From: Caryophanales bacterium | GTDB lineage: Bacteria; Bacillota_I; Bacilli_A; Izemoplasmatales; Izemoplasmataceae | Reading direction: 5' to 3' | Assembly: GCA_021767685.1 (NCBI GenBank) | Contig: JAASSV010000001.1 | Location: 1-33,006, forward strand | DNA: 33,006 nucleotides | Shown here: piece by piece, positions 7,873 to 29,607 of the stretch | Layout of the letters: every line of letters starts with the position of its first letter | Numbering within the stretch: the stretch's first letter is position 1 | Notes under the pieces: model-generated | Database searches by the model: none | Told to the model about the DNA's origin: nothing | Seen by the model: only the letters and a program-made list of their open reading frames with translations | Position numbers and translations under genes: made by a program

Positions 7873-7891
7873 AAATATGGGAGTGATAACG

Positions 7892-8629
7892 ATGAGTAAT
7901 TTTGACATTATAGCCATCAACATCTATTTAATAGTTCTTATTATAAATATACTAAAAAATAAGACGATTATTCAAGTATATCGCTTTTTTAAATTGATTA
8001 TTTTTGCAATGTTCATCTTTGCGATAGCAATTGCAATTGAAGATAACGTTTCCTACTTAAACTTACTGTTAAAGGGAATCCCACTATTGTTAGTTGTTGG
8101 CTTAGTGTTGGAACCGGAAGTCGCTGCTATATTTAAAAAATTAGGCATTTTCGGTCATGGTTTGTTTTCTGAAACCATTGAAGATGTAACCAAAAATGAA
8201 GTATTGAAAAGTATTGAATTTATGAGCCAACGCAATATAGGGGCATTAATAACCTTTGAAAAGAATGCTTCGTTGCAAGAGTTTGTACAGACGGCTTATC
8301 CCATTAAAACGACACTAAGTAACGAACTTCTGTCGACTATTTTTGTTCCCGAAACTCCATTGCATGATGGTGGTGTTATTATACGAGGTGATCAGATCAT
8401 ATGCGCTGGAGCTTACTATCCTCCAACAGATCGATTGGATATTCCGAAGCAATTAGGATCGCGCCATAGAGCGGCAATTGGTGTTAGTGAAATCAGTGAT
8501 GCACTCACAATAGTTGTTAGTGAGCAAACCGGAAATATAAGTGTTGCATTGGATGGATATTTGGACTTAGATGTTGATCATGAAACACTTGTTAATTATT
8601 TAGAAACACATTTACAAGGTAAATCATAG
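7892..8629 (+). CDS. cdaA: Membrane diadenylate cyclase (c-di-AMP synthase, CdaA family)
   Basis: Condenses two ATP into cyclic di-AMP, the messenger controlling potassium and osmolyte uptake and wall homeostasis. 245 residues. Three membrane helices (about 5-21, 33-49, 56-74) precede a cytosolic DAC domain. Catalytic motifs: PLHDGGVII with Asp159 and GSRHRAA with R191-H192-R193. The usual DGA and GTRHR read here as DGG and GSRHR; both changes are conservative and the core residues remain, so activity is likely. The usual neighbours, a YbbR-domain regulator (cdaR) and glmM, are absent. Start: ATG 7892 with GGGAGTG upstream; an in-frame TTG at 7832 and an ATG overlapping the ribosome binding site were rejected. 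Confidence 0.94.
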   Translation: MSNFDIIAINIYLIVLIINILKNKTIIQVYRFFKLIIFAMFIFAIAIAIEDNVSYLNLLLKGIPLLLVVGLVLEPEVAAIFKKLGIFGHGLFSETIEDVTKNEVLKSIEFMSQRNIGALITFEKNASLQEFVQTAYPIKTTLSNELLSTIFVPETPLHDGGVIIRGDQIICAGAYYPPTDRLDIPKQLGSRHRAAIGVSEISDALTIVVSEQTGNISVALDGYLDLDVDHETLVNYLETHLQGKS

Positions 8630-8699: not shown

Positions 8700-8728
8700 G
8701 AGTTAAGTATAAAAATAGGGTGATTGCT

Positions 8729-11062
8729 GTGGAAAAGTATGATGTAGTCATTATTGGTGGGGGACTTGGTAGTTTAACCACCGCAACGTATTTAACAAAG
8801 CGACTGAGAAATATCGCTGTTTTTGAACAGAACTCGAAACGTAAAATTGCAAGTTATACAAAGAACTTTCGCGATAAACATAGACATAAGTTTGAATTTA
8901 AATATTTCCACCAAGACTTGGGTGGTGTTCATAAAGGTGATTTGTTCTACGAATATTTAAAGAGATGTGGATTAGACAAGCGTTTTGAATATGTGGATAA
9001 TCGCCAAACAATGGTCGTAACTGAAGATAGAAGAATTGTCAAAAGACCAAATACATTTAAAGAATTAAAAATCTATTTAGTAAGACATTATCCAAAGCAA
9101 CGTGATAATACTTACCGATTATTTGATGATATTGAACGTCATTACAATGATTTTAGAAAACAGAAATTAGCTAGGTTATCAAACCAAGAGTATACGATTT
9201 CTTCGCTTATGATTGAGTGGGGTGATTTAAGCTTATTTGATGTTTTAAATCAATATTATAACGATGACAAAATAATGGAAGAGTTTCTCTATGTTCATAA
9301 TGCAATTGGATTAGACTTAACAGCTATTAATGCCTATAACTACTTTGTGAAATGGTTTGATACGTTTGTTGATGGAAACCATTTAATCGCTACTTCTTTT
9401 GATGAGATTGTAGAAGAGTTAACAAAAGAAATCTCTAAAAGCCGGCAAAAAATATTTACAAATCGAAAAATTGAACACGTTGTAATTAAAGATAATGAAA
9501 TCGATTATATCATTGATACAGAAGGTAATGAAATAGAAGCAAAACACTATGTGATTAACATGCGTACTGATGAGTTTGCTGATATGTATTTAGACTCTGA
9601 TGAAGAGATTAAATCTGATTTTTATGAGTTTTATCCGGATGCAAATAATGGGGTATATACAAATCGAGTGTATCTTGGGTTATCGGTACTGCCAGAAGAC
9701 ATTGGCATGAATCATTTACAATATTTCTTCAGTCATATTGAAGAAGATGATGTTAGATTTCTAAGTTTAACCAACTATAATAAACTTGATCCATCATGCT
9801 GTACAGGTAATCGTGGTGCGATAATGATTGAATATATCGACACAGGAAAATCAAAAAAGGACCAAATCAATCAAGTTGTAACGCAGTTCTTAAAATATTA
9901 TCCTAAAGCAAAAGACGCGATTTTATTAAAACGAATTGATGATAAAACACCATACTTTGGCAGTCAAGCTGAAGCATCTTTTTGGGAAGGGAAATCGCTT
10001 AATGACTTGTTTTTCATTGATGATTACTCTGCTTTAAACCCATTTGATAATAGTTATTTTATTGGGTACTGGACAAAACCAGAATCGGGGATCACAGGAA
10101 TTCTTCAAACAGGTGTAGAATACGGAGATATTATTGATGAAGATATTTATCATGGCGATGATGATGATTACTTTATCACCCATGATGAGCTAATGAACAT
10201 CATAACAAACCAGTTTATTCCCCATAGTTTAGGGAAAACCGAGAAGAATATTCAGTTCTTTATTGGTAAAGATTCGTATTTTGTTCGTACAAAAGGTAAA
10301 CATCAACGGTTATATAAAGGGACAAGTGAAATATCTGATATTATTATTGTCGCAACGAATGAATGCTTATATGACCTAAGTGTGGGAAATACCACTCTTG
10401 ATCAAGCAATCGATAACGGGACATTGGAGTATGTCGGTAATCGTGAGTTTCTAAACAATGTTATCGAAGCCTTTGATATGGGTATTGTTATTTCAAAACC
10501 TGATCGATATAAATTTGTACCAGGCAAATGGGGCTTAAAAATCATGTTGGCGCAATTATCTATTGTTTTCTTATCAAATTTATTAGGGAATTACCATTTG
10601 TACATTTATTTGGCTCCTCTTACACTTTTAGCCTTTGGGGCTACTGTATATTATAAATACAAATTACTTGGAAAAATAACGGTATTTGAGTATGTTGTAA
10701 TGACAATTTACTTATTGCTATCTGTTACAAGTGTGTTTGTGGAAGAAGTGAATAGCTTAAAAGATAGTACATATACTATGACTTTCTTTACTGTATATTT
10801 CATAGGGACATGGTTAATTAACCTTCCTATAGCGCTTGGTTATGTCCGACATGATTATCGCATCGATTATACAAGAACAAAGTTATTTATGAAAATGACT
10901 GGCGGCTTAACCTTTATATGGGGTGTGACTTTCTTTGTCATTCTTGTAGCTGATTTATTAATGGATCAAAGTTATGCAGCGCTATTCTACTACTTAGTTC
11001 CACTATCAGTATATCTATCATTTTACTACCCATCTAATTATATTCGTGGCTATTTCAATTAA
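8729..11062 (+). CDS. FAD-dependent oxidoreductase (CrtI/amine-oxidase-like) with SCP2-like and membrane domains
   Basis: No exact family recognised. 777 residues in three parts. (1) An N-terminal dinucleotide-binding fold with VVIIGGGLGSLTTATYL and an acidic end to the second strand (VFEQ), followed by a long region organised like phytoene desaturase/carotenoid isomerase-type flavoproteins; HQDLGGVHKG near residue 70 lies where those bind flavin or substrate. (2) About residues 485-585 resemble an SCP2 lipid-binding domain: VATNECLYDLSVGNTTLDQA then GTLEYVGNREFLNNVIEAF. (3) About 606-768, roughly six hydrophobic segments ending in YYPSNYIRGYFN. The inference is membrane-bound redox chemistry on a lipid, perhaps an isoprenoid. 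Start: GTG 8729 with AGGGTGAT upstream; a GTG at 8720 lies in that site. The next gene follows 15 bases on, probably co-transcribed. Confidence 0.72.
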   Translation: MEKYDVVIIGGGLGSLTTATYLTKRLRNIAVFEQNSKRKIASYTKNFRDKHRHKFEFKYFHQDLGGVHKGDLFYEYLKRCGLDKRFEYVDNRQTMVVTEDRRIVKRPNTFKELKIYLVRHYPKQRDNTYRLFDDIERHYNDFRKQKLARLSNQEYTISSLMIEWGDLSLFDVLNQYYNDDKIMEEFLYVHNAIGLDLTAINAYNYFVKWFDTFVDGNHLIATSFDEIVEELTKEISKSRQKIFTNRKIEHVVIKDNEIDYIIDTEGNEIEAKHYVINMRTDEFADMYLDSDEEIKSDFYEFYPDANNGVYTNRVYLGLSVLPEDIGMNHLQYFFSHIEEDDVRFLSLTNYNKLDPSCCTGNRGAIMIEYIDTGKSKKDQINQVVTQFLKYYPKAKDAILLKRIDDKTPYFGSQAEASFWEGKSLNDLFFIDDYSALNPFDNSYFIGYWTKPESGITGILQTGVEYGDIIDEDIYHGDDDDYFITHDELMNIITNQFIPHSLGKTEKNIQFFIGKDSYFVRTKGKHQRLYKGTSEISDIIIVATNECLYDLSVGNTTLDQAIDNGTLEYVGNREFLNNVIEAFDMGIVISKPDRYKFVPGKWGLKIMLAQLSIVFLSNLLGNYHLYIYLAPLTLLAFGATVYYKYKLLGKITVFEYVVMTIYLLLSVTSVFVEEVNSLKDSTYTMTFFTVYFIGTWLINLPIALGYVRHDYRIDYTRTKLFMKMTGGLTFIWGVTFFVILVADLLMDQSYAALFYYLVPLSVYLSFYYPSNYIRGYFN

Positions 11063-11077
11063 TATGGAGGGAACAAC

Positions 11078-12229
11078 ATGATTGACAATATTATTCTCGC
11101 TATTATCGTATTATGGTTTATCTATGCGATAGCTATTAAATTGACAAAAAAACGTAAACACGACTATAGCTTCTTTATAGCGTTTTTAGCCGCGCTCGGA
11201 TATGGATACTTCCAGTATTATGATACATATCCGGCCGTTTATAAAGAGATATACCAGTACAGTGTTATTGGAATATTTGCTTTGTGGATGATAATGGATA
11301 ATATTATTGTTTTATTTAAAAAGAATGTATCAGAGTTTGATTTTTATCATCTGGAGAAAGAGTTAGATGAGTTAAAACATAGTTCTGAGTTATTACGCTT
11401 ACGGTTTATTTCAACAATCGAGTTATTAAGCGATGGAATAGCATTTCGTGAGGATAAAGGAATCTTTGGTACTGATCAATATATTGAGTACTTAGGGTTA
11501 TCAGAGAACCAGTTTACAGTTGATACATTTGAAAATATCATGATAAAAGATGATTTAGTCCAATATAAGATGCTAATAGATAAATTATCTAAAAGAAATC
11601 CTGTTTATTCAATGAATTATCGTATTGAAAAAGATGGACAACAATTGTGGATAAAAGAAAAAGGAAAAGCTATTTTTATTGGTAAGAAAAAACATGTCAT
11701 TTCTATTATTAGACCGATGGATGTAAGACGCTTTCCAACAACCGAAGTTGATGTCTTAAATTCATTGCCAAAGTTTAAAGAAATGTACAATGAAATGCAG
11801 CGACTAACACGCAAAAAAAATCCTTACCATTTAGTTGTAATTCAATTAACAAATATTCCGAAAATAAATGAAAAATATGGTCGCGATTTTGGTGATTTAA
11901 TGATGGGAGAATATCTTTCAAAATTACGATTTAAATTTATAAAAGATAATCGAAGTTTATTTCGAATATCAGGTATCCAATTTGGGTTATTAATTAAAGA
12001 TCAGAAGAAGTTTGAATTACTTGATAGAGCACTTGTAGGTACCGGAGAATTATTAACAATGAGAATGAAATTTGGTGGTGTATCGCAAGTTATTTATCCA
12101 AACTTGGGAATATCAGAATCGCCTTATGAAGGTAAAAACCCTGATGATGTTTATAATGAGGCAATTACTGCACTCAAGCGAACAGAAAAAGAATCCTACC
12201 AAAAAAGTTTTGCTTTCTATGAAAAATAA
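11078..12229 (+). CDS. Membrane PAS and degenerate GGDEF-domain protein
   Basis: 383 residues. Three predicted membrane helices (about 3-21, 31-46, 60-83), a short helical coil (about 90-110), a PAS-like domain (about 112-210, with SDGIAFREDKG and KDGQQLWIKEKG), then a GGDEF-like fold (about 220-375). Where cyclases have the metal-binding motif, this protein has LTNIPKINEKYG, losing the first Asp. The signature GGDEF reads SGIQF near residues 298-302, so diguanylate cyclase activity is not expected. Membrane-PAS-degenerate GGDEF is also the N-terminal half of GdpP, the c-di-AMP phosphodiesterase, but the DHH/DHHA1 domains are absent. It may sense signals or bind a nucleotide for the flavoprotein upstream. 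Start: ATG 11078 with GGAGGG upstream. No clear terminator follows. Confidence 0.75.
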   Translation: MIDNIILAIIVLWFIYAIAIKLTKKRKHDYSFFIAFLAALGYGYFQYYDTYPAVYKEIYQYSVIGIFALWMIMDNIIVLFKKNVSEFDFYHLEKELDELKHSSELLRLRFISTIELLSDGIAFREDKGIFGTDQYIEYLGLSENQFTVDTFENIMIKDDLVQYKMLIDKLSKRNPVYSMNYRIEKDGQQLWIKEKGKAIFIGKKKHVISIIRPMDVRRFPTTEVDVLNSLPKFKEMYNEMQRLTRKKNPYHLVVIQLTNIPKINEKYGRDFGDLMMGEYLSKLRFKFIKDNRSLFRISGIQFGLLIKDQKKFELLDRALVGTGELLTMRMKFGGVSQVIYPNLGISESPYEGKNPDDVYNEAITALKRTEKESYQKSFAFYEK

Positions 12230-12497
12230 ACAGTAACTAATATTATAAAAAATGTGGAAAACTCACAACAATCACACCTTCATTTATCAAGTGCTTAAAA
12301 TGTGGAAAACGCATTAAAAAAATAATAGATATATTATTTAAAAGAGTATACATGTATTATGTATTCAAAAATAATAAATACATAAAAAATTGAATAGGTA
12401 TATACAAAAAATAAATGATGAAAAAATATTAAACATAGTCACATTTATTTTGTGGATATTATTAATAATTTACTTAACAAATATTTAGGTGATAAAC
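12230..12497. other. AT-rich spacer with DnaA-box-like repeats upstream of ispD
   Basis: 268 non-coding, very AT-rich bases. TGTGGAAAA occurs at 12253-12261 and 12301-12309, both inside the 14-base repeat AAAATGTGGAAAAC where the first copy reads AAAAATGTGGAAAAC. TGTGGATAT lies at 12451-12459. The first two match the relaxed DnaA box (complement TTWTNCACA); the third misses by one base. An 8-base inverted repeat TATGTATT (12358-12365) / AATACATA (12377-12384) lies between. A possible -10 for ispD (TATTAT, 12457-12462) overlaps the third site. Confidence 0.5.
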
Positions 12498-13154
12498 ATG
12501 AAATATTCTGTATTAATTATGGCTGCGGGAAACGGTACTCGAACAGGGCTTCCATATAATAAAATTTTTCACAAAATTAATGGAATGACTGTACTAGATT
12601 ATAGTTTAAAATTTTTTAAAAATGATGAGCAATGTGAGACTATTTTAATTGTATGTAATGAAGCGGATTATGACCGTCTGATTTCAACGATTAATGATGA
12701 AAATATATCACTTATTGTTGGAGGAGATACGAGACAGCAAAGTGTATATAACGGCTTAAGTAAAGTGAATACTGAGTATGTATTAGTTCATGATGCTGCT
12801 CGACCATTTATTAATCATACAATTATGAAGCGATTTTTAACGGATTTAGTTAAATATAATGCTTGTTCATTAGCTGTGCCATCAAAAAATACGCTTGTAA
12901 AAGTCGATGGAAATCGCTTTGTTGAGTCGTTAAATAGAAGTAATATTTTGCAAGTTCAAACTCCACAAGGGTTTAAAACTAGTTTGCTCATGAAAGCTCA
13001 TAAAAAAGCCCTGCAAGATGATCACATGGCAACCGACGATGTGTCTTTAGTTGCTTTATATACAGATGTTATACCAAGATATATAATTGGTGATGAACGC
13101 TCAATTAAGCTAACAACACCATATGATATTCAATTGTTAGAGGTGATTTTATGA
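12498..13154 (+). CDS. ispD: 2-C-methyl-D-erythritol 4-phosphate cytidylyltransferase
   Basis: Third step of the MEP (non-mevalonate) isoprenoid pathway: transfers CMP from CTP to methylerythritol phosphate. 218 residues, usual length. Nucleotide-binding N-terminus LIMAAGNGTRTGLPYNK carries the glycine-rich loop and the conserved Lys. Other family motifs: VHDAARPF, LQVQTPQGFK, and ATDDVSLV near the C-terminus. Start: ATG 12498 with TAGGTGAT upstream; the in-frame GTG at 12489 belongs to the ribosome binding site. The end overlaps the ispF start by 4 bases (ATGA), so the two are translationally coupled, as in many bacteria where ispD and ispF are adjacent or fused. Confidence 0.96.
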   Translation: MKYSVLIMAAGNGTRTGLPYNKIFHKINGMTVLDYSLKFFKNDEQCETILIVCNEADYDRLISTINDENISLIVGGDTRQQSVYNGLSKVNTEYVLVHDAARPFINHTIMKRFLTDLVKYNACSLAVPSKNTLVKVDGNRFVESLNRSNILQVQTPQGFKTSLLMKAHKKALQDDHMATDDVSLVALYTDVIPRYIIGDERSIKLTTPYDIQLLEVIL

Positions 13155-13627
13155 TACGCATAGGTAAAAGTACTGATATTCATCAATTGGCTCCTGGAAA
13201 CAGCATAGTTATTGGGGGTGTAACTATCCCGAGTACAGTAAAAAGTGTTGGACATAGTGATGCTGATTGTCTTTTGCATACTGTCGCAGAATGCCTAATT
13301 GGTGCGCTTTCCCTCGGAGATTTAGGTAAATTATTTCCAGATGATGATCCACAGTATAAAGGCATTGATTCACAGAAACTCGTTAAGGAAGTTATGTATT
13401 TGGTTAAGAATAAGGGTTATAGAGTTCTGAATATTGATTCTACCGTGTTTCTAGAACAACCAAAACTTCAATCATATGTTAAGGAAATGAGACAAATCAT
13501 TGCAGAACTTCTGGATATTGATATGAACTATGTGAGTGTTAAGGCTACAACTAGCGAAAAAGTTGGGATTGTTGGAAGAGAAGAGGCCATTGTAGCAGAA
13601 AGTACTGTACTAGTAACGGACGATTAA
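13151..13627 (+). CDS. ispF: 2-C-methyl-D-erythritol 2,4-cyclodiphosphate synthase
   Basis: Fifth step of the MEP pathway: closes CDP-methylerythritol phosphate to the cyclic diphosphate with release of CMP; a trimer with zinc. 158 residues, the normal size. Metal ligands Asp9 and His11 lie in the family motif near the N-terminus (STDIHQLAPG) and the third ligand His in VGHSDADCLLHTVAECLIGA. GDLGKLFPDDDPQYKG and the C-terminal VSVKATTSEKVGIVGREEAI are also family hallmarks. It overlaps ispD by ATGA. The last codons and TAA form the left arm of a hairpin without a U-run, so termination here is unclear. Confidence 0.97.
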   Translation: MIRIGKSTDIHQLAPGNSIVIGGVTIPSTVKSVGHSDADCLLHTVAECLIGALSLGDLGKLFPDDDPQYKGIDSQKLVKEVMYLVKNKGYRVLNIDSTVFLEQPKLQSYVKEMRQIIAELLDIDMNYVSVKATTSEKVGIVGREEAIVAESTVLVTDD

Positions 13628-19865: not shown

Positions 19866-19886
19866 TGCCGATAGGTGGTGATTTGT

Positions 19887-21347
19887 TTGAGTATTCTTCA
19901 TATAGAGAACCTTCACAAGACGTATAAAAATGGGGGTACGAAAACACACGTTTTAAAGGGCATTAATTTAGATATCGACGAAGGTAGTTTTGTCTCGATC
20001 TTAGGGAGAAGTGGATCAGGTAAAACCACTCTTTTGAATGTCATAAGCACCTTATTAGAGTTTGATGAAGGATCCATCATAATTGATGGAGAAGATGTTA
20101 CAAAAGCAAAGAATAAAAAATTGAATAGTATTCGAAATAATTACGTTGGTTTTGTTTTTCAAGACTTTAACTTAGTCAATGAAATGAGCGTTTTGGATAA
20201 TGTAGCTACACCTCTCATATTAAATGGGGTGTCTTTTCGTAAAGCGCGGGAAAAGGCCACTGAAGCATTAGAAGATGTTGGTCTTGGACAATATACCAAA
20301 GTACGACCACCTGAGTTATCAGGGGGACAACAACAACGTGTTGCAATTGCTAGAGCAATAGTAAATGATCAAAAGATATTATTGTGTGATGAACCAACCG
20401 GGGCATTGGATGATTATACAGCAACAGAAATTCTAGACCTATTAAAGGTTTTATCTAAGACAAAAACCGTTATTATGGTAACCCATGATGAAGAGTTTGC
20501 AAAGAAGTATAGTGATCGTTTAATCATGTTAGTTGATGGAAAAATAGTTAAAGATGTAACAACTGAAAAAGGAATGTTGTTTGAAGCAGATATTGACGAT
20601 AATGACAAAACATTAAATATTAGATCAGCAGGATTTATTAACTTATTGATGTATTCTTTTTTAAGTATGGATATTGATAAAAAGAAATTCGGGAAAACGT
20701 TTAAAACATTTAGTTTATCATTAACGCTTTTTATTGTGATAAGTGTGATTAATGAGAACCTAGATGTTTTTACAGAACGTTATCTCGACTTTTTTGTTAC
20801 GCGAGAAGTAGCAGATACGAATGTTTTGCTAGATTTTATCTATCAATTCTTTGAACAAAATGTGACCGTACTTATTCAAACAATACTCTATGTACTGATT
20901 GGGTTCTGTGTTGTCTCATATCTCTTTGTATTCACCATAAATATTATTAATAAGAAACGGGAAATCGCTGTATTAAAAGCATTTGGAGCGTCGCAAGAAG
21001 CCATCGCTATCCTCTTTATGCTACGGCCAATCAAGTTCATTTTAGCAATATTTAAAGACACATTAATCTATACTGCAATACTTATGTTGTTGATTAATGG
21101 GGTCCTTAGTTTTAGAGCATTGTTCTATACGGAGTATTTAACATTTGTAACTAATATTTTTGTAGTAACATTTAATATGATCAAAGCGTTTGTTATAAAC
21201 TCATCTACCGCAATTGATTTTCCACTGTTAGTTGGCCATATCTATCCGATATTCTTAATTGTACTGGGACTATTTATGATTGGTAGTCTACTCCCTGCGT
21301 ATTACATTTCAAAAAGTGATACGATAAGGATGTTGGCAAGAGAATGA
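19887..21347 (+). CDS. ABC transporter, ATPase-FtsX permease fusion, minimal ectodomain (1st of 4)
   Basis: 486 residues. ATPase about 1-220: Walker A GRSGSGKTT (about 40-48), Q-loop FVFQDFN, signature LSGGQQQRVAIARA, Walker B ILLCDEPTGALD, switch VTHDEE; all intact and of the MacB/LolD type. The permease half has helix 1 (about 271-289), an outer loop of only about 37 residues, helix 2 (about 327-354), the FtsX cytoplasmic motif KKREIAVLKAFGASQEAI, helix 3 (about 389-409), a further hydrophobic loop, helix 4 (about 448-473), and the FtsX-style tail SDTIRMLARE. Start: TTG 19887 with AGGTGGTGA upstream; two GTGs further up overlap that site. ATGA overlap with the next gene. Substrate unknown. 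Confidence 0.9.
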   Translation: MSILHIENLHKTYKNGGTKTHVLKGINLDIDEGSFVSILGRSGSGKTTLLNVISTLLEFDEGSIIIDGEDVTKAKNKKLNSIRNNYVGFVFQDFNLVNEMSVLDNVATPLILNGVSFRKAREKATEALEDVGLGQYTKVRPPELSGGQQQRVAIARAIVNDQKILLCDEPTGALDDYTATEILDLLKVLSKTKTVIMVTHDEEFAKKYSDRLIMLVDGKIVKDVTTEKGMLFEADIDDNDKTLNIRSAGFINLLMYSFLSMDIDKKKFGKTFKTFSLSLTLFIVISVINENLDVFTERYLDFFVTREVADTNVLLDFIYQFFEQNVTVLIQTILYVLIGFCVVSYLFVFTINIINKKREIAVLKAFGASQEAIAILFMLRPIKFILAIFKDTLIYTAILMLLINGVLSFRALFYTEYLTFVTNIFVVTFNMIKAFVINSSTAIDFPLLVGHIYPIFLIVLGLFMIGSLLPAYYISKSDTIRMLARE

Positions 21348-24300
21348 TTGAGTTAAAGAATCTTACAAAAGTTTATGAAACAATAAACTATAATATTATC
21401 GCACTAAGCGATTTATCAATGACATTTGATATCGGAGAAGTCATTGTCCTCTTAGGGAAAAGTGGTAGTGGAAAAAGTACGTTACTCAATATTATTGGCG
21501 GATTTGATCGCGATTATGTCGGAGAGTGTCGAATTCAAGACACCGATTTAAAAAGTAAAACACAACGCGAAATTGACACAACAAGAAAACGAAACATTGG
21601 TTTCGTTTTTCAACAGTATATCCTACTCAACAACCTAACGGTGATTGAGAATGTTGAACTATCATTACGCGTTAGCGGTGTAGTGAACGCCGGAAGTCGC
21701 CGACGGGCGGCGAAACATGCATTAAAACTTGTTGGACTTGAAGATCATATGAATAAGTACCCTCATCAAATTTCAGGTGGACAAAAACAACGTGTTGCAA
21801 TAGCTAGAGCGTTTGTTAAAAACCCTGATGTTATCATTGCTGATGAACCAACGGCAGCGTTAGATAGCCGTACCTCAAAAGAAATATTAGACTTATTGGC
21901 AGATTTATGTCGAAATAAACTACTCATTATCGCAACCCATAATAAGTCTATCGTAAGAGATTATGCATCCCGTGTTATTGAGCTACGTAGTGGATATGTA
22001 GTTCGTGATCAATTAATCACAGATCCATCAAAAGTACGTGTTGATGAGCTTGATTTGGTCATTGATAAAGAAATTAAAGAAGATGAAGAGAAAATAAAAC
22101 AACTCATTGAAGTTGAGAAAGTTGTATCTGACGATAATAAATCAACTGTCTTAAAAGATATGGGAATCAATATTGAAAACTTCCGTTTAAATAATGATCA
22201 ACCATTTAGTATCGATGATGAGTTAAAAAAACGCCTTATTAAAGAGCGGATGCGCAATTCAAAGTTATCCACACGGATTTATCGATTTTTACAAACATCG
22301 GATAAGTTTTATGGTAAGAAAACCTATGCGAATAAATCCTTTTTCAGAAATATTGGCCTTCATTTATTTAGTGCTATTATTTTTGCTGTGTTTTTACTGA
22401 CGATAGTCTTTGGATTAAACTTTGTCTCAGAAACCTTTGGCGGGTTCAATGAGAAAGCGTTATATACAAGAAACATGAATAATGCGAACCACGTTTACTT
22501 TGCCCCTAGTGAGTTTACAATGGAAGACTATGAAACGACAATTTACGATTCGTTAGAACAATCGTTTATCAATGATTTTTCACAAACCGAGTTAACACGC
22601 AATGATTTTTATGAAATGCTTTTAACAGATCCGTATGTAGAATATCAGTATTATCAAGATAAACTAAGTTATCTTGATTCTGAATTATCTAGTAATGATG
22701 CGATTAACCTGTACTATAACAACTCAAGCATTATTATGCTTGAAGAGAATCCTAATATTATTTTTGAACCACTTCAATATGAATACCAAAATATCGTTAC
22801 TTTCCCTGAACCTTATGTCTATGTTACTGATTTTATGGATATAGCACTAGAGGAATCGAAATTATACCAATTTAATTTTCTTTATGCGGAGAACAATGAG
22901 GACATTTTAGAACAACATATCCTTGAAGGTGGAGAATTGCCAGACGAAGCCAATGAGATTGTCATTCCTGTCGCATATTTATTTCATTATGAAATACTAA
23001 ACCCGAGTGATTTTAAAGATAATTATGGTAATGATTTAAGAATGATTCCATCCGAACGCATCAAAGAAGCATTTGATGCATTAAACCCTTCGCGAAAAAC
23101 AATTGACATCACAAAAACCATAGTAACATTTGATGATACTACTGAAGGATATACGGAATCTTATGCAACTACAACACAGACATTTAATATTGTCGGATTA
23201 ATCAACTTTGATGGTGATATTAATCCGCAATTAGCCTTACGGGAAGATCTTTATATCCCAAATACGGCGTCACAACATTACAGTTTTATCGTCAGTAAGG
23301 CGTCAGAAGATGATGTTAACTTTGACATTATTGATAATGTCTCAGATAAAACATTTATGAAAAGTGTGCAATATGCAGAAATTAATAATGAAAATTACAT
23401 AGAGTACCAAGTCGCTGACTTAGAACAAACCTTTGAAGAAACGTATAAAAACACCCTATATAATAACTTTTCTGATCAATTCTCAATATGGGTTGAGGCA
23501 CTAAATAATGCGACAGGATTAGTGAGTGACTACGTGCAAGCTGATCTAGCAGGGGACAATCCAGATGATACCTTTATGGATAACGTCATTGATAATGCAT
23601 TATTCGAAGGACTCACTTATCGCGATCTTTTACGGTATTATATTGCGGATCATATGACAGTTATTAGTGATGAAAACGAGTTTAACTATCTATGTCCAAG
23701 CTGTGATTTTGATGATCGTAGTATTTCATCCTTATACAGTGTCGCCATGGATGCTTACCCAAGAATAAAACAAAGCAGCGAGTATGTGGATATGTTAGAG
23801 AACTATGGCGATGTCAGACGATTAACCTATCAAGAAAGCACAAACTATATCATGTATCAGGAATATGCGCATCGGTTTAATAACCACTTTTATGAAACAT
23901 CTCAAGGCAATACCTATGAGTTATCACTAGTGAGTGCATTTGAAGAAGAAAAAGGAAGTCTTACGTCATTAGTTTATGTTGTTTTGCCTAGAGTTTTAAT
24001 TGAGAACCTGCCATTTTTAGATACATTTGTATCCATGATTGAAAGAATGGAAGCCAATCAATCCTTCCAAAGTTTTATGCAACAAACGAATCTTGATTTA
24101 CTCATTAGTAGTATTGGGACAAATGCCATCAGAAGTGTGGTTATGATTATTCTATATATTGTAATTTACCTAGCATTAGCGCTTTCTGTTGTCTTTTTGA
24201 GTATTGTCCTGATTAATCTGTATGGCAATATCTATGAGACAGCAACACGGAAGCGGATACGTGAACTTGCGAGTTTACGCGTGCTGGGAACAAGCTATGA

Positions 24301-24619
24301 TGATATTCATGACATGGTTAAAATAGAAAACAAGCGTGTAGCGATATTTAGTTATATCTTATTTGCAGCGACATTACTAGGCTTAAGTCGTCTAGATTTA
24401 TTTGTGTCCGCGCCCGTACAACACTTTTATATGCCGTTATTTGGATTGTTCTTTGACTTTAATTTATATGATGTTTTTGTCATAAATCCAGTTGTCATTA
24501 TTTTTGCAACACTATTATTTTATTTCTTTGTTTATCGCTTTATTATTCGCAAAGTATCGACAAAGAAAATTAAGAATATTGACACTATTCGGGCAATTAG
24601 GGATGGTGAGAATGTATGA
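21344..24619 (+). CDS. ABC transporter, ATPase-FtsX permease fusion, large ectodomain (2nd of 4)
   Basis: 1091 residues. ATPase about 1-225 with GKSGSGKST, FVFQQYI, ISGGQKQRVAIARA (Ile for the usual Leu), VIIADEPTAALD and ATHN; functional in principle. A charged linker (about 225-330) rich in Lys, Glu and Asp follows. Helix 1 (about 336-363) leads into an extracytoplasmic domain of about 565 residues, far larger than in MacB, with no family recognised and only two cysteines, as CPSC near 784-787. Helices 2-4 follow from about 929, with the FtsX motif RKRIRELASLRVLGTSYDDI and tail DTIRAIRDG. ATGA overlaps at both ends. Confidence 0.9.
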   Translation: MIELKNLTKVYETINYNIIALSDLSMTFDIGEVIVLLGKSGSGKSTLLNIIGGFDRDYVGECRIQDTDLKSKTQREIDTTRKRNIGFVFQQYILLNNLTVIENVELSLRVSGVVNAGSRRRAAKHALKLVGLEDHMNKYPHQISGGQKQRVAIARAFVKNPDVIIADEPTAALDSRTSKEILDLLADLCRNKLLIIATHNKSIVRDYASRVIELRSGYVVRDQLITDPSKVRVDELDLVIDKEIKEDEEKIKQLIEVEKVVSDDNKSTVLKDMGINIENFRLNNDQPFSIDDELKKRLIKERMRNSKLSTRIYRFLQTSDKFYGKKTYANKSFFRNIGLHLFSAIIFAVFLLTIVFGLNFVSETFGGFNEKALYTRNMNNANHVYFAPSEFTMEDYETTIYDSLEQSFINDFSQTELTRNDFYEMLLTDPYVEYQYYQDKLSYLDSELSSNDAINLYYNNSSIIMLEENPNIIFEPLQYEYQNIVTFPEPYVYVTDFMDIALEESKLYQFNFLYAENNEDILEQHILEGGELPDEANEIVIPVAYLFHYEILNPSDFKDNYGNDLRMIPSERIKEAFDALNPSRKTIDITKTIVTFDDTTEGYTESYATTTQTFNIVGLINFDGDINPQLALREDLYIPNTASQHYSFIVSKASEDDVNFDIIDNVSDKTFMKSVQYAEINNENYIEYQVADLEQTFEETYKNTLYNNFSDQFSIWVEALNNATGLVSDYVQADLAGDNPDDTFMDNVIDNALFEGLTYRDLLRYYIADHMTVISDENEFNYLCPSCDFDDRSISSLYSVAMDAYPRIKQSSEYVDMLENYGDVRRLTYQESTNYIMYQEYAHRFNNHFYETSQGNTYELSLVSAFEEEKGSLTSLVYVVLPRVLIENLPFLDTFVSMIERMEANQSFQSFMQQTNLDLLISSIGTNAIRSVVMIILYIVIYLALALSVVFLSIVLINLYGNIYETATRKRIRELASLRVLGTSYDDIHDMVKIENKRVAIFSYILFAATLLGLSRLDLFVSAPVQHFYMPLFGLFFDFNLYDVFVINPVVIIFATLLFYFFVYRFIIRKVSTKKIKNIDTIRAIRDGENV

Positions 24620-26862
24620 TTGATATTCGTGACTTAGAGAAAATTTACCATACTAAAGAACGCGATTATGTAGCGCTTAAAGATGTGAACTTAACATTTG
24701 AACCAGGCGAATTTATCGCTGTTTTAGGTGAGAGTGGAAGCGGTAAAACAACATTCTTGAACATGATCAGTGGTGTCGATACAAAAACATCGGGCACCAT
24801 TTTGTTTAACGAAGAAAACACGGGTAAATGGAAAGATAAAAAATGGCGTGAAATCCGGAACACAGAAATAGGCTTCATTTTTCAACGATTTAATCTTATT
24901 GAACACTTAACCGTGATGGAAAATGTAACCTTGCCACTAATTCTAACAGGTAGTGATGATAAGGTGGCAATTGAGATTGCCCGCCGGTTACTTAAAGAAG
25001 TTGGCTTAGAAGGAACAGAAGATAAACTAGCAAGCGAGTTATCAGGTGGACAACGGCAACGTGTTGCCATCGCACGTACGATTATTATCAATCCTACAGT
25101 TATTTTAGCCGATGAACCAACGGGTGCACTTGATAGTACAACCGCAAAAGAGATCTTAGAATTATTACAACACTTTGCACCAGGGCGAATTATCATCATG
25201 GTAACGCATGATGAAGATTTGGCTTATGATAATGCAACACGTGTTGTCAGACTTCATGATGGAAAAGTTATTAGTGATGAGATTATTAAAGAAAAGAACG
25301 CAGATAAGCGACTTACCACCGATGACTTACTGTCATATAATACGAAAATCACACGACGTAAACGTCGTCATTTGGTTAAGCAATTTCCTGAGTTAGAAGG
25401 ACAATTAGAGTTAGGCGAAACAACAAAAATTCCGTTGCACCGTAAATATATTGCCAATAATCCTGTCTTTACTAGGATGATTGCACGTGAGAATTATCGT
25501 CAAAAACGTGCCATAAACCGGCGTATTTTATGGAGTTTTGTGATTGGGATTAGTTTGTTATTACTTGTGAACATCGTGATGAAAAACATCACAGCGTATA
25601 ATTTTCATTTATTTGATATCAATAATGACTATGAACAGTATTTAGTCACAGACATAGGGACTTACGATACAGAAACAACCACTGAAGATGAACACATTGC
25701 GAGTTTAATGGCATCACTAGAAACTGAAGAGAATGTGGATGATGTGTATCTGTACTATGAACACTATGTCCAAGAACTTTATTTAGCAACAACCAATAAT
25801 TTTTATTCATCAGATTCAGGAGAACGGACCATCAACGCCGGGGTATACAGCCCTCGGATTACGACACTTGGTCCTGACACCATTACCGAAGAAGACTTCT
25901 ATTTACGTGATCAGATCTTTATTGGGCGCTTTCCCAACCCTGACGCGACAACACCAGAAGTACTCATTAGTAGTGAATACCTCTTATCTCAGTTCTTAGG
26001 TATTAGTCTAAATGAAGCATTAAATGATGGGGCTAGTACAGATAATATACGCTTAGAAGCGTTTGTAGATAAAACACTATTCATATGTGGGGAAACGGTG
26101 AAACTAGGCGATACAGAGCCTAACTTAACCACCGTTGATGGCTCCTGTTTTGCGTATACGATATCGGGTATTTTAAATAGTTATTATCAAGGAATAAACT
26201 ATGTGGGTAATATTTATATGTTTAATGATGGGTTTGAGTTATACGTAGAATATTTGAAAGATGACAAAGGCTTTACTCGGGCAGATGAATATTATGATAA
26301 GTATATTGCATTAACACCTGATAATGTGAATGAGCCTTTATCGATCAGCGAACTAAATGCAACATACGATATCACAATCGAAAACCCTGAATACAGACAA
26401 TATCAAGAAACACGAGATCTAGAGTTAATGCTAGAATATATGTATTATGCAATCTTTGCCAGCCTATTTGTTATTAGTGGAACCGTCGCCGTTAATATTG
26501 TTATCTCTAGTATTCATGAACGGATTCGTGAGATTGGAATTTATTCAAGTATTGGAGTTAGTAAAAAAAGCATACGTAACATGTTTGTCTTTGAAACTGT
26601 TGAAACCGCATGGCGGATTCTTCTCATTACAGGGGCATTATATGGCATACTAGCACTTACATTCCAATATGCTTATCGTTTTGTTGTTGTAAATTTAACA
26701 AATTTAGAACCAATATTCGGATATAATCCAGTATTTAGTTATGAAACTACCTTTAGCATCACGGTAATTATCGGCGCTGTTATATTCTTATTTGTCAGTG
26801 TCTTATTACCGTCCTTTAAAGCTGCCAATATGCGGGCAATCGATGCCCTAAGAAGTGGGTGA
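24616..26862 (+). CDS. ABC transporter, ATPase-FtsX permease fusion (3rd of 4)
   Basis: 748 residues. ATPase with GESGSGKTT, FIFQRFN, LSGGQRQRVAIART, VILADEPTGALD and VTHDED. A basic linker (KITRRKRRH) precedes helix 1 (about 304-323). The extracytoplasmic domain is about 283 residues (325-607) with two cysteines near 490 and 510, 20 residues apart. Helix 2 (about 608-631) leads into the FtsX loop HERIREIGIYSSIGVSKKSI; two more helices and the tail MRAIDALRSG end the protein. The N-terminus KIYHTKERDYVALKDV and the FtsX loop resemble those of the next gene, so these two may be a more recent duplication. ATGA overlap upstream; 6-base gap downstream. Confidence 0.9.
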   Translation: MIDIRDLEKIYHTKERDYVALKDVNLTFEPGEFIAVLGESGSGKTTFLNMISGVDTKTSGTILFNEENTGKWKDKKWREIRNTEIGFIFQRFNLIEHLTVMENVTLPLILTGSDDKVAIEIARRLLKEVGLEGTEDKLASELSGGQRQRVAIARTIIINPTVILADEPTGALDSTTAKEILELLQHFAPGRIIIMVTHDEDLAYDNATRVVRLHDGKVISDEIIKEKNADKRLTTDDLLSYNTKITRRKRRHLVKQFPELEGQLELGETTKIPLHRKYIANNPVFTRMIARENYRQKRAINRRILWSFVIGISLLLLVNIVMKNITAYNFHLFDINNDYEQYLVTDIGTYDTETTTEDEHIASLMASLETEENVDDVYLYYEHYVQELYLATTNNFYSSDSGERTINAGVYSPRITTLGPDTITEEDFYLRDQIFIGRFPNPDATTPEVLISSEYLLSQFLGISLNEALNDGASTDNIRLEAFVDKTLFICGETVKLGDTEPNLTTVDGSCFAYTISGILNSYYQGINYVGNIYMFNDGFELYVEYLKDDKGFTRADEYYDKYIALTPDNVNEPLSISELNATYDITIENPEYRQYQETRDLELMLEYMYYAIFASLFVISGTVAVNIVISSIHERIREIGIYSSIGVSKKSIRNMFVFETVETAWRILLITGALYGILALTFQYAYRFVVVNLTNLEPIFGYNPVFSYETTFSITVIIGAVIFLFVSVLLPSFKAANMRAIDALRSG

Positions 26863-26868
26863 TGACCG

Positions 26869-29607
26869 ATGAGCCGAGGCGATATTATATTACGTTTGGT
26901 AGGCGTTAAACGCATCTACCATACCAAAGCAAACCGCGAGATTGTTGCGCTTAACGGCATAACAACGTCTTTTAAACGTGGCGAATTTGTCGGTGTTGTC
27001 GGTAAAAGTGGTAGTGGAAAAAGTACATTAATCAATATATTAGGGGGATTAGATACCCCGGATGCTGGAGATTATTTCTTAGAAGGAAATAACATCACCG
27101 CCATTAATGAAGGCCAGTGGGATGCGATTCGTAACGAAAAGATTGGATTCATTTTTCAAGAGTATCACTTATTAGAATACTTAAGTGTGTATAAAAACGT
27201 GGAAATTGCTTTAAAGTATCAAGAAGGCAATAGCCGTAAAGAAAAAGATGCCAAAGTAAAAGACATCTTAAATAAAGTTGGATTAAGTGATCATATTCAT
27301 AAGTTACCTAGTCAGTTATCGGGGGGACAACGCCAACGGGTTGCAATCGCAAGAGCGCTAGTTAAAGACCCTGCGATTATTTTAGCTGATGAACCAACAG
27401 GGGCGCTTGATTATAATACAAGCCAAACCATTATTGAGTTAATCAAAGGATTGAGTAAAGAACGGTTAGTAATAGTTGTGACACATGACCGCGGGATTGC
27501 GAATGAACATGCGACACGCATTATTGAGTTGTCAGAAGGGGTATTCACTAATGATTTAATTAAAGAAGATATCCCGCAAACCTATCAAAATACCTATCGT
27601 AAGACAGATCCAACAGATTTATCGATAAGAGATAAGTTTGAATTAACCTTTCAAAAGATTAGTTCCCGTTTCTTTAGAACGCTATTTACAGCCCTTTCCC
27701 TTGCGTTAGCATTTAGTTTTACCATTGTATTTAATGGGATTGAGCGCGGGGTTACAGAAGCGTATGATGCCTATTATGAAGCCCTTAATAAAGCAAATAG
27801 TTATGCGTTTAGTCTTGTGCCAGAAGAACCGGTTATTGATGACGCAGATTATTTTACTGCGCAAGAAGATTTGATCCAAACATACGAAAGTTATTTTGAA
27901 GATAAAAACAGTGAACTTGTCAGTAGTTATTCTACTGATGTGATGATCTCGCCAATCACGAGTGGAGTTGAGCGTGTTGTCGATAATCCATCATCCCCAG
28001 ACTTGTTAAATGATCATAAGTTACGGTTGTTCCATAGTGATCGTATCGCTGATTATAGTTATGATGATTTATTCATCGGGGATAGCCAGTATCCTGATCC
28101 AAACGTTAATGAGATTATGGTGACAAGTCGATTTTATCGAGATGTCATGCAGTTATCAGACAATATTGTTAACTTAAATAATTATGTCAATGAAGAAATA
28201 GACATCCCGATTTATAGTTTTACCATTGAAGAAGGAATCTTTGGTGTGTCAGAGTATTTGGACACACTTGCTGAAAATGAAAACCAAGAAATTGTACTTG
28301 GTGATGACACAGATGAGACCTTAGTACCAATACGGTATTTACCAATTAATTTACCGATGTATTGTTATAATTATGATAATCTTAATAATTATTACCAAGA
28401 TAAGTGTGAAGCGCGAATCAGAGACCAAAGAATCACCGAATACTTTGATTCTGTTGATGACTTTATTGCGTATATTGATGATTTTAGAACACAAGTAAAT
28501 ACGATTGATCCAAATTACTTTGATATCTTATTAAGAAGTAACGCCGTCTATTATTTAGTTGATGAGCGAGATGCCTTTTTAGACCCAGGAGAACCACGAT
28601 ACATAGAACGGGTTTATCAGACAGTGTATGACGAAACTACCGCCGTATTTCCTCAAGTTGAGATACGCGATGCGGTATTTAAAAGTCAGACAGATACCGT
28701 ATCTATGGTAGTTACCGCAATTATTGATAACGAGAACGAATCGGTTGTCTATATTGATAAAGATACTTATGAAAATACATTATTCCAAAAACAGGCGTTA
28801 CTTGACTATGTTGATGGGTATTTTAGTGTCAACTTAGATAGCGGTATTTTAGAAAGTGGACTTTTAGAAGATGTGAATGAAGAAGATATCTTAGAAATTG
28901 TGACGATTGAGAATTTCCATGATCCGATTAATGACTTTGCCCAAGAAGGTGGCAATAACTATGCCGCAACGTTTAACATCATTCGTAAAGAGCCGATTGA
29001 ACAAGGGGACGAATGTGCTATTTATACAGTTGATAATGTCTTAACACAGAGTAATATTGAGTTATCTCCAATTGTTGATGATGTATTTACAGTCACAGAT
29101 TACTCTAATTGTAAAGTAAATAGTGAAGCCTACCATTACTTAAATAGTGTTCGTACACTATTTGGGGTCTTCTTTAATACGTTACTGGTTATTAGTATTG
29201 TATTCTTTAATATTTTACTTAAAGTAATTCTTGGTGAGCGAATTAAAGAAATTGGTATTTACCGAAGTGTTGGTTCAACCGCAAAAGATATTAAAATGCT
29301 CTTCTTTATTGAAATTGTCACAGAAGTCTTAATGGCAATTATTATGAGTGTTGTCATGATTTATTATGCTAATCAGTTAATTAATGCGGTGTTCTTAGAT
29401 GTTATTAATCAAGGAACAGGTGTCATTAGTTTTGCAGGAATGAAGTTAAGTATTGGAAATAACCGGATGTTAACGGATATTTCATTCTTTAATCTACTCT
29501 TTTATAGTTTCATTGTATTTGCTTTATTAGGCTTTTTAAGTTATCGTAATGTCACAAAACTAGCCAAAACAAAACCAATAGATATTATTCGGGAGGTGTC
29601 ATCATGA
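26869..29607 (+). CDS. ABC transporter, ATPase-FtsX permease fusion, large ectodomain (4th of 4)
   Basis: 912 residues. ATPase with GKSGSGKST, FIFQEYH, LSGGQRQRVAIARA, IILADEPTGALD and VTHDRG. Helix 1 (about 267-290, FRTLFTALSLALAFSFTIVF) leads to an extracytoplasmic domain of about 470 residues (291-763), acidic and Tyr/Asn/Asp-rich, with four cysteines in two close pairs (about 498/512 and 714/747). Helix 2 (about 764-787) runs into the FtsX loop GERIKEIGIYRSVGSTAKDI; two more helices and the tail PIDIIREVSS follow. Start: ATG 26869, 6 bases after the previous stop. Its TGA overlaps the ATG of the lipoprotein gene (ATGA). Confidence 0.9.
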   Translation: MSRGDIILRLVGVKRIYHTKANREIVALNGITTSFKRGEFVGVVGKSGSGKSTLINILGGLDTPDAGDYFLEGNNITAINEGQWDAIRNEKIGFIFQEYHLLEYLSVYKNVEIALKYQEGNSRKEKDAKVKDILNKVGLSDHIHKLPSQLSGGQRQRVAIARALVKDPAIILADEPTGALDYNTSQTIIELIKGLSKERLVIVVTHDRGIANEHATRIIELSEGVFTNDLIKEDIPQTYQNTYRKTDPTDLSIRDKFELTFQKISSRFFRTLFTALSLALAFSFTIVFNGIERGVTEAYDAYYEALNKANSYAFSLVPEEPVIDDADYFTAQEDLIQTYESYFEDKNSELVSSYSTDVMISPITSGVERVVDNPSSPDLLNDHKLRLFHSDRIADYSYDDLFIGDSQYPDPNVNEIMVTSRFYRDVMQLSDNIVNLNNYVNEEIDIPIYSFTIEEGIFGVSEYLDTLAENENQEIVLGDDTDETLVPIRYLPINLPMYCYNYDNLNNYYQDKCEARIRDQRITEYFDSVDDFIAYIDDFRTQVNTIDPNYFDILLRSNAVYYLVDERDAFLDPGEPRYIERVYQTVYDETTAVFPQVEIRDAVFKSQTDTVSMVVTAIIDNENESVVYIDKDTYENTLFQKQALLDYVDGYFSVNLDSGILESGLLEDVNEEDILEIVTIENFHDPINDFAQEGGNNYAATFNIIRKEPIEQGDECAIYTVDNVLTQSNIELSPIVDDVFTVTDYSNCKVNSEAYHYLNSVRTLFGVFFNTLLVISIVFFNILLKVILGERIKEIGIYRSVGSTAKDIKMLFFIEIVTEVLMAIIMSVVMIYYANQLINAVFLDVINQGTGVISFAGMKLSIGNNRMLTDISFFNLLFYSFIVFALLGFLSYRNVTKLAKTKPIDIIREVSS

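Follow-up and report, generated by a model that had tools for sequence, protein, structure and literature searches.

A membrane protein with PAS and degenerate GGDEF domains, encoded beside cdaA, is a candidate partner of the diadenylate cyclase in bacteria without CdaR

Downstream of the diadenylate cyclase gene cdaA, many bacteria of the order here called Candidatus Izemoplasmatales carry a gene for a membrane PAS protein whose GGDEF domain has lost its catalytic residues. In this study, we characterized one such gene in a stretch of 33,006 nucleotides (the window), a single contig (C135) of a 1.22-Mb assembly that is 72% complete, and we followed its homologs through related families, labelled f1, f2 and so on in this analysis. 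On balance, we lean towards the view that the protein, without catalysis of its own, acts in the membrane as a signalling partner of CdaA, in the place of CdaR. What we observed by computation is its domain make-up, the loss of its catalytic residues, the selective constraint upon it, its linkage to cdaA and the absence of CdaR. A role around c-di-AMP is plausible because a membrane PAS part and a degenerate GGDEF domain are joined here to cdaA linkage, with no DHH or DHHA1 domain.

Domain make-up and state of the GGDEF domain

The C-terminal part of the protein (Table 1) matches the Pfam GGDEF domain (PF00990; E=6.5e-10, 39.4 bits against a cut-off of 23.8, residues 234-372), and PAS_3 matches ahead of it (E=1.6e-6, above the cut-off, residues 132-209). 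Pfam found no DHH, DHHA1 or YbbR domain in the protein. In an AlphaFold model built on 67 sequences (mean pLDDT 83.6), the membrane helices are joined by a long helix to a PAS fold, and a GGDEF fold comes after it; the pTM of 0.47 leaves the relative placement of the domains not fixed. In this model the third helix continues to residue 116 (53-116); only the first and third helices exceed a hydropathy of 1.4. Structure alignment of the GGDEF part with those of PleD, DosC and Thermotoga maritima gave Z 16-18 and rmsd 2.4-2.9. The nearest solved folds belong to the PAS-GGDEF proteins DosP and PA0861, from which the window protein differs in lacking an EAL domain and the catalytic GGDEF signature, and in having a membrane anchor and cdaA linkage. 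A sequence-only reading of this DNA had proposed PAS and GGDEF folds, an SGIQF signature and missing DHH/DHHA1 domains, all of which the Pfam matches and the model bear out. It had named a structure prediction with no PAS or GGDEF fold as the outcome that would speak against it, and this outcome did not occur.

Table 1. Coordinates of the PAS-pseudo-GGDEF gene and its neighbours in the window
Feature	Position	Strand	Basis
Membrane PAS-pseudo-GGDEF protein	11078..12229	+	ORF, 383 aa; Pfam; AlphaFold model
Three predicted membrane helices	11081..11317	+	Residues about 2-24, 31-47, 53-80 (AlphaFold model)
PAS domain	11435..11716	+	Residues 120-213; PAS_3 match at 132-209
Pseudo-GGDEF domain	11744..12226	+	Residues 223-383; Pfam, AlphaFold model, alignment columns
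SGIQF at GGDEF signature	11969..11983	+	Residues 298-302
cdaA-type diadenylate cyclase, two genes upstream	7889..8629	+	PF02457 E=9.7e-38
Membrane flavoprotein (NAD_binding_8)	8720..11062	+	Pfam; ends 15 nt before PAS-pseudo-GGDEF gene
ispD, downstream	12489..13154	+	PF01128 4e-52
ispF, downstream	13151..13627	+	PF02542 4.4e-57

Alignment columns were assigned through a profile alignment with solved cyclases, not by sequence to PleD itself, and are numbered by what we take to be the PleD residues (D327, D329, K332, N335, H340, D344, R366, E370 and K442). The metal-binding aspartate had been read as threonine; the D327 column in fact holds Gln256, and Thr258 occupies the second acidic position (D329). 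At position 300, where cyclases have the catalytic acid, isoleucine is found in 59 of 59 Izemoplasmatales orthologs, with signatures such as SGIRF (16), TGIQF (13), TGIRF (9) and others similar to these. A further set of 36 domains from f12, f16 and f22 has leucine (27), isoleucine (7) or serine (2) at this position and an acidic residue in none, and 21 ordinary GGDEF domains used as controls have aspartate (16), glutamate (3) or asparagine (2). Altogether, the catalytic acid is replaced in 95/95 domains of f1, f2, f3, f12, f16 and f22 and intact in 19 of the 21 ordinary ones; the phosphate-binding lysine is lost in 90/95 and intact in 21/21. The phosphate and metal positions lost are the K332, K442, D327 and E370 columns. 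The guanine-contact asparagine (N335 in PleD) is retained in all 95 domains, arginine stands at the R366 position in all 95 and at the H340 position in 92, and the second guanine contact, D344, is aspartate in just 41. Six residues are invariant among the 59 orthologs: N259, N264 (guanine contact), R269, G272, R296 and G299. The 13 domains of f18 and f5 have also lost most of the positions that the other families keep.

When the gene was compared with two same-genus relatives, the ratio of nonsynonymous to synonymous changes was 0.020 and 0.047 in the GGDEF domain and higher in the PAS domain (0.047 and 0.084), all rough values because synonymous sites are near saturation. A GGDEF-domain ratio near 0.02 and the 90% protein identity to the nearest complete relative confirm that the observation, a PAS protein of the membrane whose GGDEF domain is degenerate, is real and beyond chance. 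Judged from these residues and ratios, the pseudo-GGDEF domain appears to be non-catalytic, and its degeneration is a selected state and not decay. In a tree of 101 domains, the 21 ordinary GGDEF domains form one clade (100/99) and the cdaA-linked domains all lie across that branch. This tree took in about half of the Izemoplasmatales rows, the others being left out for size, and the placement of its one GdpP row, with a branch length of 3.93, is unreliable.

Linkage to cdaA and spread of the family

As the sequence-only reading had stated, cdaA lies two genes upstream, with the NAD_binding_8 flavoprotein gene between; its product carries the DAC domain (Table 1), and its match to TIGR00159 (CdaA), at 176.1 bits, is slightly below the cut-off of 188.8. 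All 61 genomes compared (our own and 60 relatives) match the PAS-pseudo-GGDEF protein at E 0.001 or better and 59 have an ortholog. The exceptions, G055 and G060, give no DAC match either, which is consistent with a missing locus. Named genome contigs searched with the profile yielded 67 loci, mostly from Candidatus Izemoplasma/Izimaplasma, Izemoplasmatales, Tenericutes and Mollicutes. In a phylum-wide search 55 of 392 genomes matched; among the matches listed, all belong to the same class, with no new lineage. Homologs outside the order are about 420-540 aa long and share the N-terminal membrane part, followed by PAS and pseudo-GGDEF domains, mostly with an additional PAS-like segment. Relative to them, the Izemoplasmatales proteins are short of one PAS domain and those of f7 of the GGDEF domain: the three f7 homologs examined all stop after the PAS region, with no GGDEF match.

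Of 52 f1 and f3 loci, 47 have cdaA upstream and on the same strand; in the other five the contig ends within about 1.5 kb upstream, so that the count among assessable loci is 47/47. For f12, f16, f22, f18 and f5, 48 loci were fetched of 64 candidates, four f10 genomes being dropped as ordinary GGDEF-EAL matches, and cdaA is upstream in 45. The three misses are L222, at a contig end, and L238 and L240, which have no cdaA nearby. At L296 (G371) cdaA is present and no homolog was detected in the stretch, which ends at the contig end. Nothing separates cdaA from the homolog in f12, f16, f22, f7, part of f1 and two f18 loci; elsewhere the gene between is the flavoprotein (most f1, f3) or a methylglyoxal synthase (f18, f5), and at L226 an opposite-strand ORF also intervenes. 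Where f1 loci lack the flavoprotein, the gap measures -74 to 36 nt; for f12, f16 and f22 it is 145-237 nt, and for f7 and two f18 loci 8-14 nt. The intervening gene of f18 and f5 had been considered as a small CdaR; this was rejected, the gene being methylglyoxal synthase-like (PF02142, one member scanned).

We also looked in the reverse direction, from cdaA, at 20 loci: 19 with DAC but no profile match, and one YbbR control. A relative follows cdaA in f7 (3/3) and in f18 (3/3, in the order cdaA-mgsA-relative), and none follows in f9 (0/6), f20 (0/3), f10 (0/1), f12 genus g143 (0/2) or f17 (0/1). Four of the seven f9 and f10 loci have a glmM-like gene after cdaA (one by Pfam, the others by eye), and in the f13 control locus a protein with a YbbR match follows. 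The f7 genes, lacking GGDEF, begin 8-13 nt after cdaA in 3/3 loci examined; hence the linkage outlasts the GGDEF domain, which argues for a partnership with CdaA. Proteins that came up in the searches as possible relatives with an intact catalytic motif (four f10 loci and L255) proved to be ordinary GGDEF or GGDEF-EAL proteins with no cdaA upstream and were left out of the linkage counts; of the f10 matches, one was judged GGDEF-EAL by Pfam and the rest by signature. At two f10 loci (L237 and L252) the six-frame match around the PAS-GGDEF-EAL gene spans 4 and 6 in-frame stops, and the GGDEF-EAL ORF is open.

The flavoprotein is more weakly linked to the PAS-pseudo-GGDEF gene than cdaA is, because it is absent from many loci where the latter two stay adjacent. 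In the window it is a 780-aa protein that carries NAD_binding_8 at its N terminus and whose C-terminal part is hydrophobic; most f1/f3 loci have it between the two genes, and others lack it. In four f1 loci (L082-L085) a diverged version has 690 aa, and the single one scanned gave no Pfam match. Elsewhere in the window, the AT-rich gap of 259 nt before ispD (12230-12488) holds two TTTTCCACA sites and one near match, and DnaA-box-like 9-mers with at most one mismatch number 45 over the whole window against 25.6 expected. No c-di-AMP riboswitch or other known RNA was found in the window at gathering thresholds. Four large ABC-transporter ATPase-permease genes stand in a row at 19875-29607, followed by a leucine-rich-repeat lipoprotein gene that runs off the contig (all by eye).

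Absence of CdaR and the exception of family f2

Passages of two papers (PMC10243994, PMC8573169) describe CdaR as a membrane-bound protein that is encoded after cdaA and contacts CdaA through its membrane part. According to them, CdaA activity changes when CdaR or GlmM binds, and GlmM acts by blocking the active oligomers. The order cdaA-cdaR-glmM is described as conserved in Firmicutes, and the mechanism of CdaA regulation by CdaR as unclear, in passages of PMC8573169. We found CdaR/YbbR in none of the 61 genomes, and the control searches matched in B. subtilis and L. lactis. A cell-wall reading, in which GlmM would have been lost along with CdaR, was considered and not taken up: the glmM model matched in 59 of the 61, above its cut-off in 4 only. 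Among 395 genomes of the class, 121 match the PAS-pseudo-GGDEF profile (at 1e-12), 117 match YbbR and 351 match DAC, and comparison of the lists by reading revealed no genome matching both the profile and YbbR. This split follows families, so a few evolutionary events may explain the pattern. In f9, f10, f17, f20 and f12 genus g143, nearly all genomes listed have DAC and neither protein. The window protein resembles CdaR as a membrane protein encoded downstream of cdaA and proposed to tune CdaA. CdaR itself, in the part of PMC10243994 that deals with it, combines a transmembrane domain with external YbbR domains; unlike it, the window protein has about three helices, PAS and pseudo-GGDEF domains taken as cytoplasmic, and no YbbR domain.

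On the other hand, several observations speak against a partnership with CdaA, among them the family-wise split just described, the families that have DAC only, the two loci without cdaA (L238 and L240) and, above all others in its effect on our confidence, family f2. The gene lies beside cdaA in f1, f3 and other families, but in none of the seven f2 genomes, where a whole-genome search found no DAC domain (0/7). All seven retain a well-conserved PAS-pseudo-GGDEF gene beside Maf/TilS (TilS by eye) and ispD-ispF, and five have GdpP. These rumen-type loci (L086-L092) thus belong to genomes with c-di-AMP machinery and no synthase. The f2 copy has either a second role or been re-used in this family. 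Because f2 keeps the protein without any DAC, we hold the CdaA reading with no more than a slight preference.

Alternative readings and a proposed role

A second reading, possible but doubtful, is that the protein is an independent nucleotide receptor, its pseudo-GGDEF domain binding GTP, (p)ppGpp or another purine and relaying this across the membrane, with cdaA just an inherited neighbour. The retained guanine-contact asparagine and the two arginines would suit such a pocket, as would the strong constraint on the domain, and f2 keeps the protein with no cyclase to regulate. However, the phosphate and metal columns are lost, the second guanine contact is kept in fewer than half of the domains, and f7 has dispensed with the whole domain while its gene still sits beside cdaA.

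It is improbable that the partner is the isoprenoid pair ispD/ispF, or the downstream folate gene, instead of cdaA. The ispD/ispF block is downstream in 39 of the 48 non-Izemoplasmatales loci and in 7/7 f2 loci, so that part of the cdaA adjacency may be inherited gene order. Yet the other nine loci, all f12, keep cdaA and the homolog with no ispD/F within five genes, the same is true of f1 genus g5 (L082-L085), and in the window 259 nt separate the PAS-pseudo-GGDEF gene from ispD.

The protein is very unlikely to be a truncated GdpP paralog or a remnant of the c-di-AMP phosphodiesterase, although the sequence-only reading had likened it to the front half of GdpP. It shares with GdpP (YybT) the membrane helices, PAS domain, degenerate GGDEF domain and c-di-AMP context, and the degenerate GGDEF domain of GdpP is treated in passages of PMC10243994 and PMC5508000. 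In contrast to GdpP, it lacks DHH/DHHA1, and its GGDEF part matches PF00990 and not the GdpP-specific model; set against the heme PAS of GdpP, its PAS part gave a match to PAS_3 only. The gdpP gene, which that reading had advised seeking elsewhere in the genome, was found on contig C207, where a GGDEF_GdpP match of 86.8 bits and DHHA1 share one frame, open as far as the contig end (791 aa read); the PAS-pseudo-GGDEF protein is therefore not the organism's GdpP. Within this genome, GGDEF_GdpP (PF24898) matches C207 only, and DHHA1 occurs on C93, C207 and C11 but not on C135. GdpP is above the cut-off in 58 of the 61 genomes, the PAS-pseudo-GGDEF family is old, and 34 scanned orthologs had no DHH/DHHA1 among 25 of the 28 Pfam families listed. 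On the strength of the coexisting GdpP and the missing GGDEF_GdpP match at the locus, a truncated GdpP was rejected. Least probable of all is that the protein, despite its unusual residues, works as a diguanylate cyclase or as an I-site receptor for c-di-GMP: the GGDEF fold and the profile are there, above the Pfam cut-off, but the catalytic and metal acids and the GG[DE]EF signature are not, 95/95 domains lack an acidic residue at the catalytic position, and the column table shows no RxxD pattern before the signature (K289 and R292 in the window protein).

Returning to a partner of CdaA, the membrane position beside the cyclase and the relay of a signal by the PAS domain are proposed by analogy. 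The membrane helices would anchor the protein beside CdaA, and the cytoplasmic PAS domain or domains may sense a small molecule or the redox state and pass the signal on. The pseudo-GGDEF domain could act as a dimerisation or output module, structural or ligand-gated, possibly with a purine-nucleotide pocket, and would change the assembly or activity of CdaA. Contact with CdaA, what the PAS domain senses and the sign of regulation are points that we infer. Tentatively, a PAS sensor may even have taken over the control of CdaA from CdaR, its dead GGDEF domain serving as a purine-nucleotide allosteric switch.

We found no description of a cdaA-linked PAS-pseudo-GGDEF family in the open papers searched, and the protein is a candidate CdaA-neighbour regulator in which known domains would have a new role. 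In families without CdaR, mostly those with small genomes, it makes a good candidate for the missing c-di-AMP controller. In this large family, a GGDEF domain is conserved though strictly non-catalytic, then degraded and finally lost beside the same gene. If control did shift from CdaR to a PAS sensor in this large, mostly small-genome branch of Bacillota, a fold of c-di-GMP signalling would govern c-di-AMP synthesis. Such a natural replacement experiment may reveal the feature that a CdaA partner must have, and the signal that reaches CdaA in wall-less cells.
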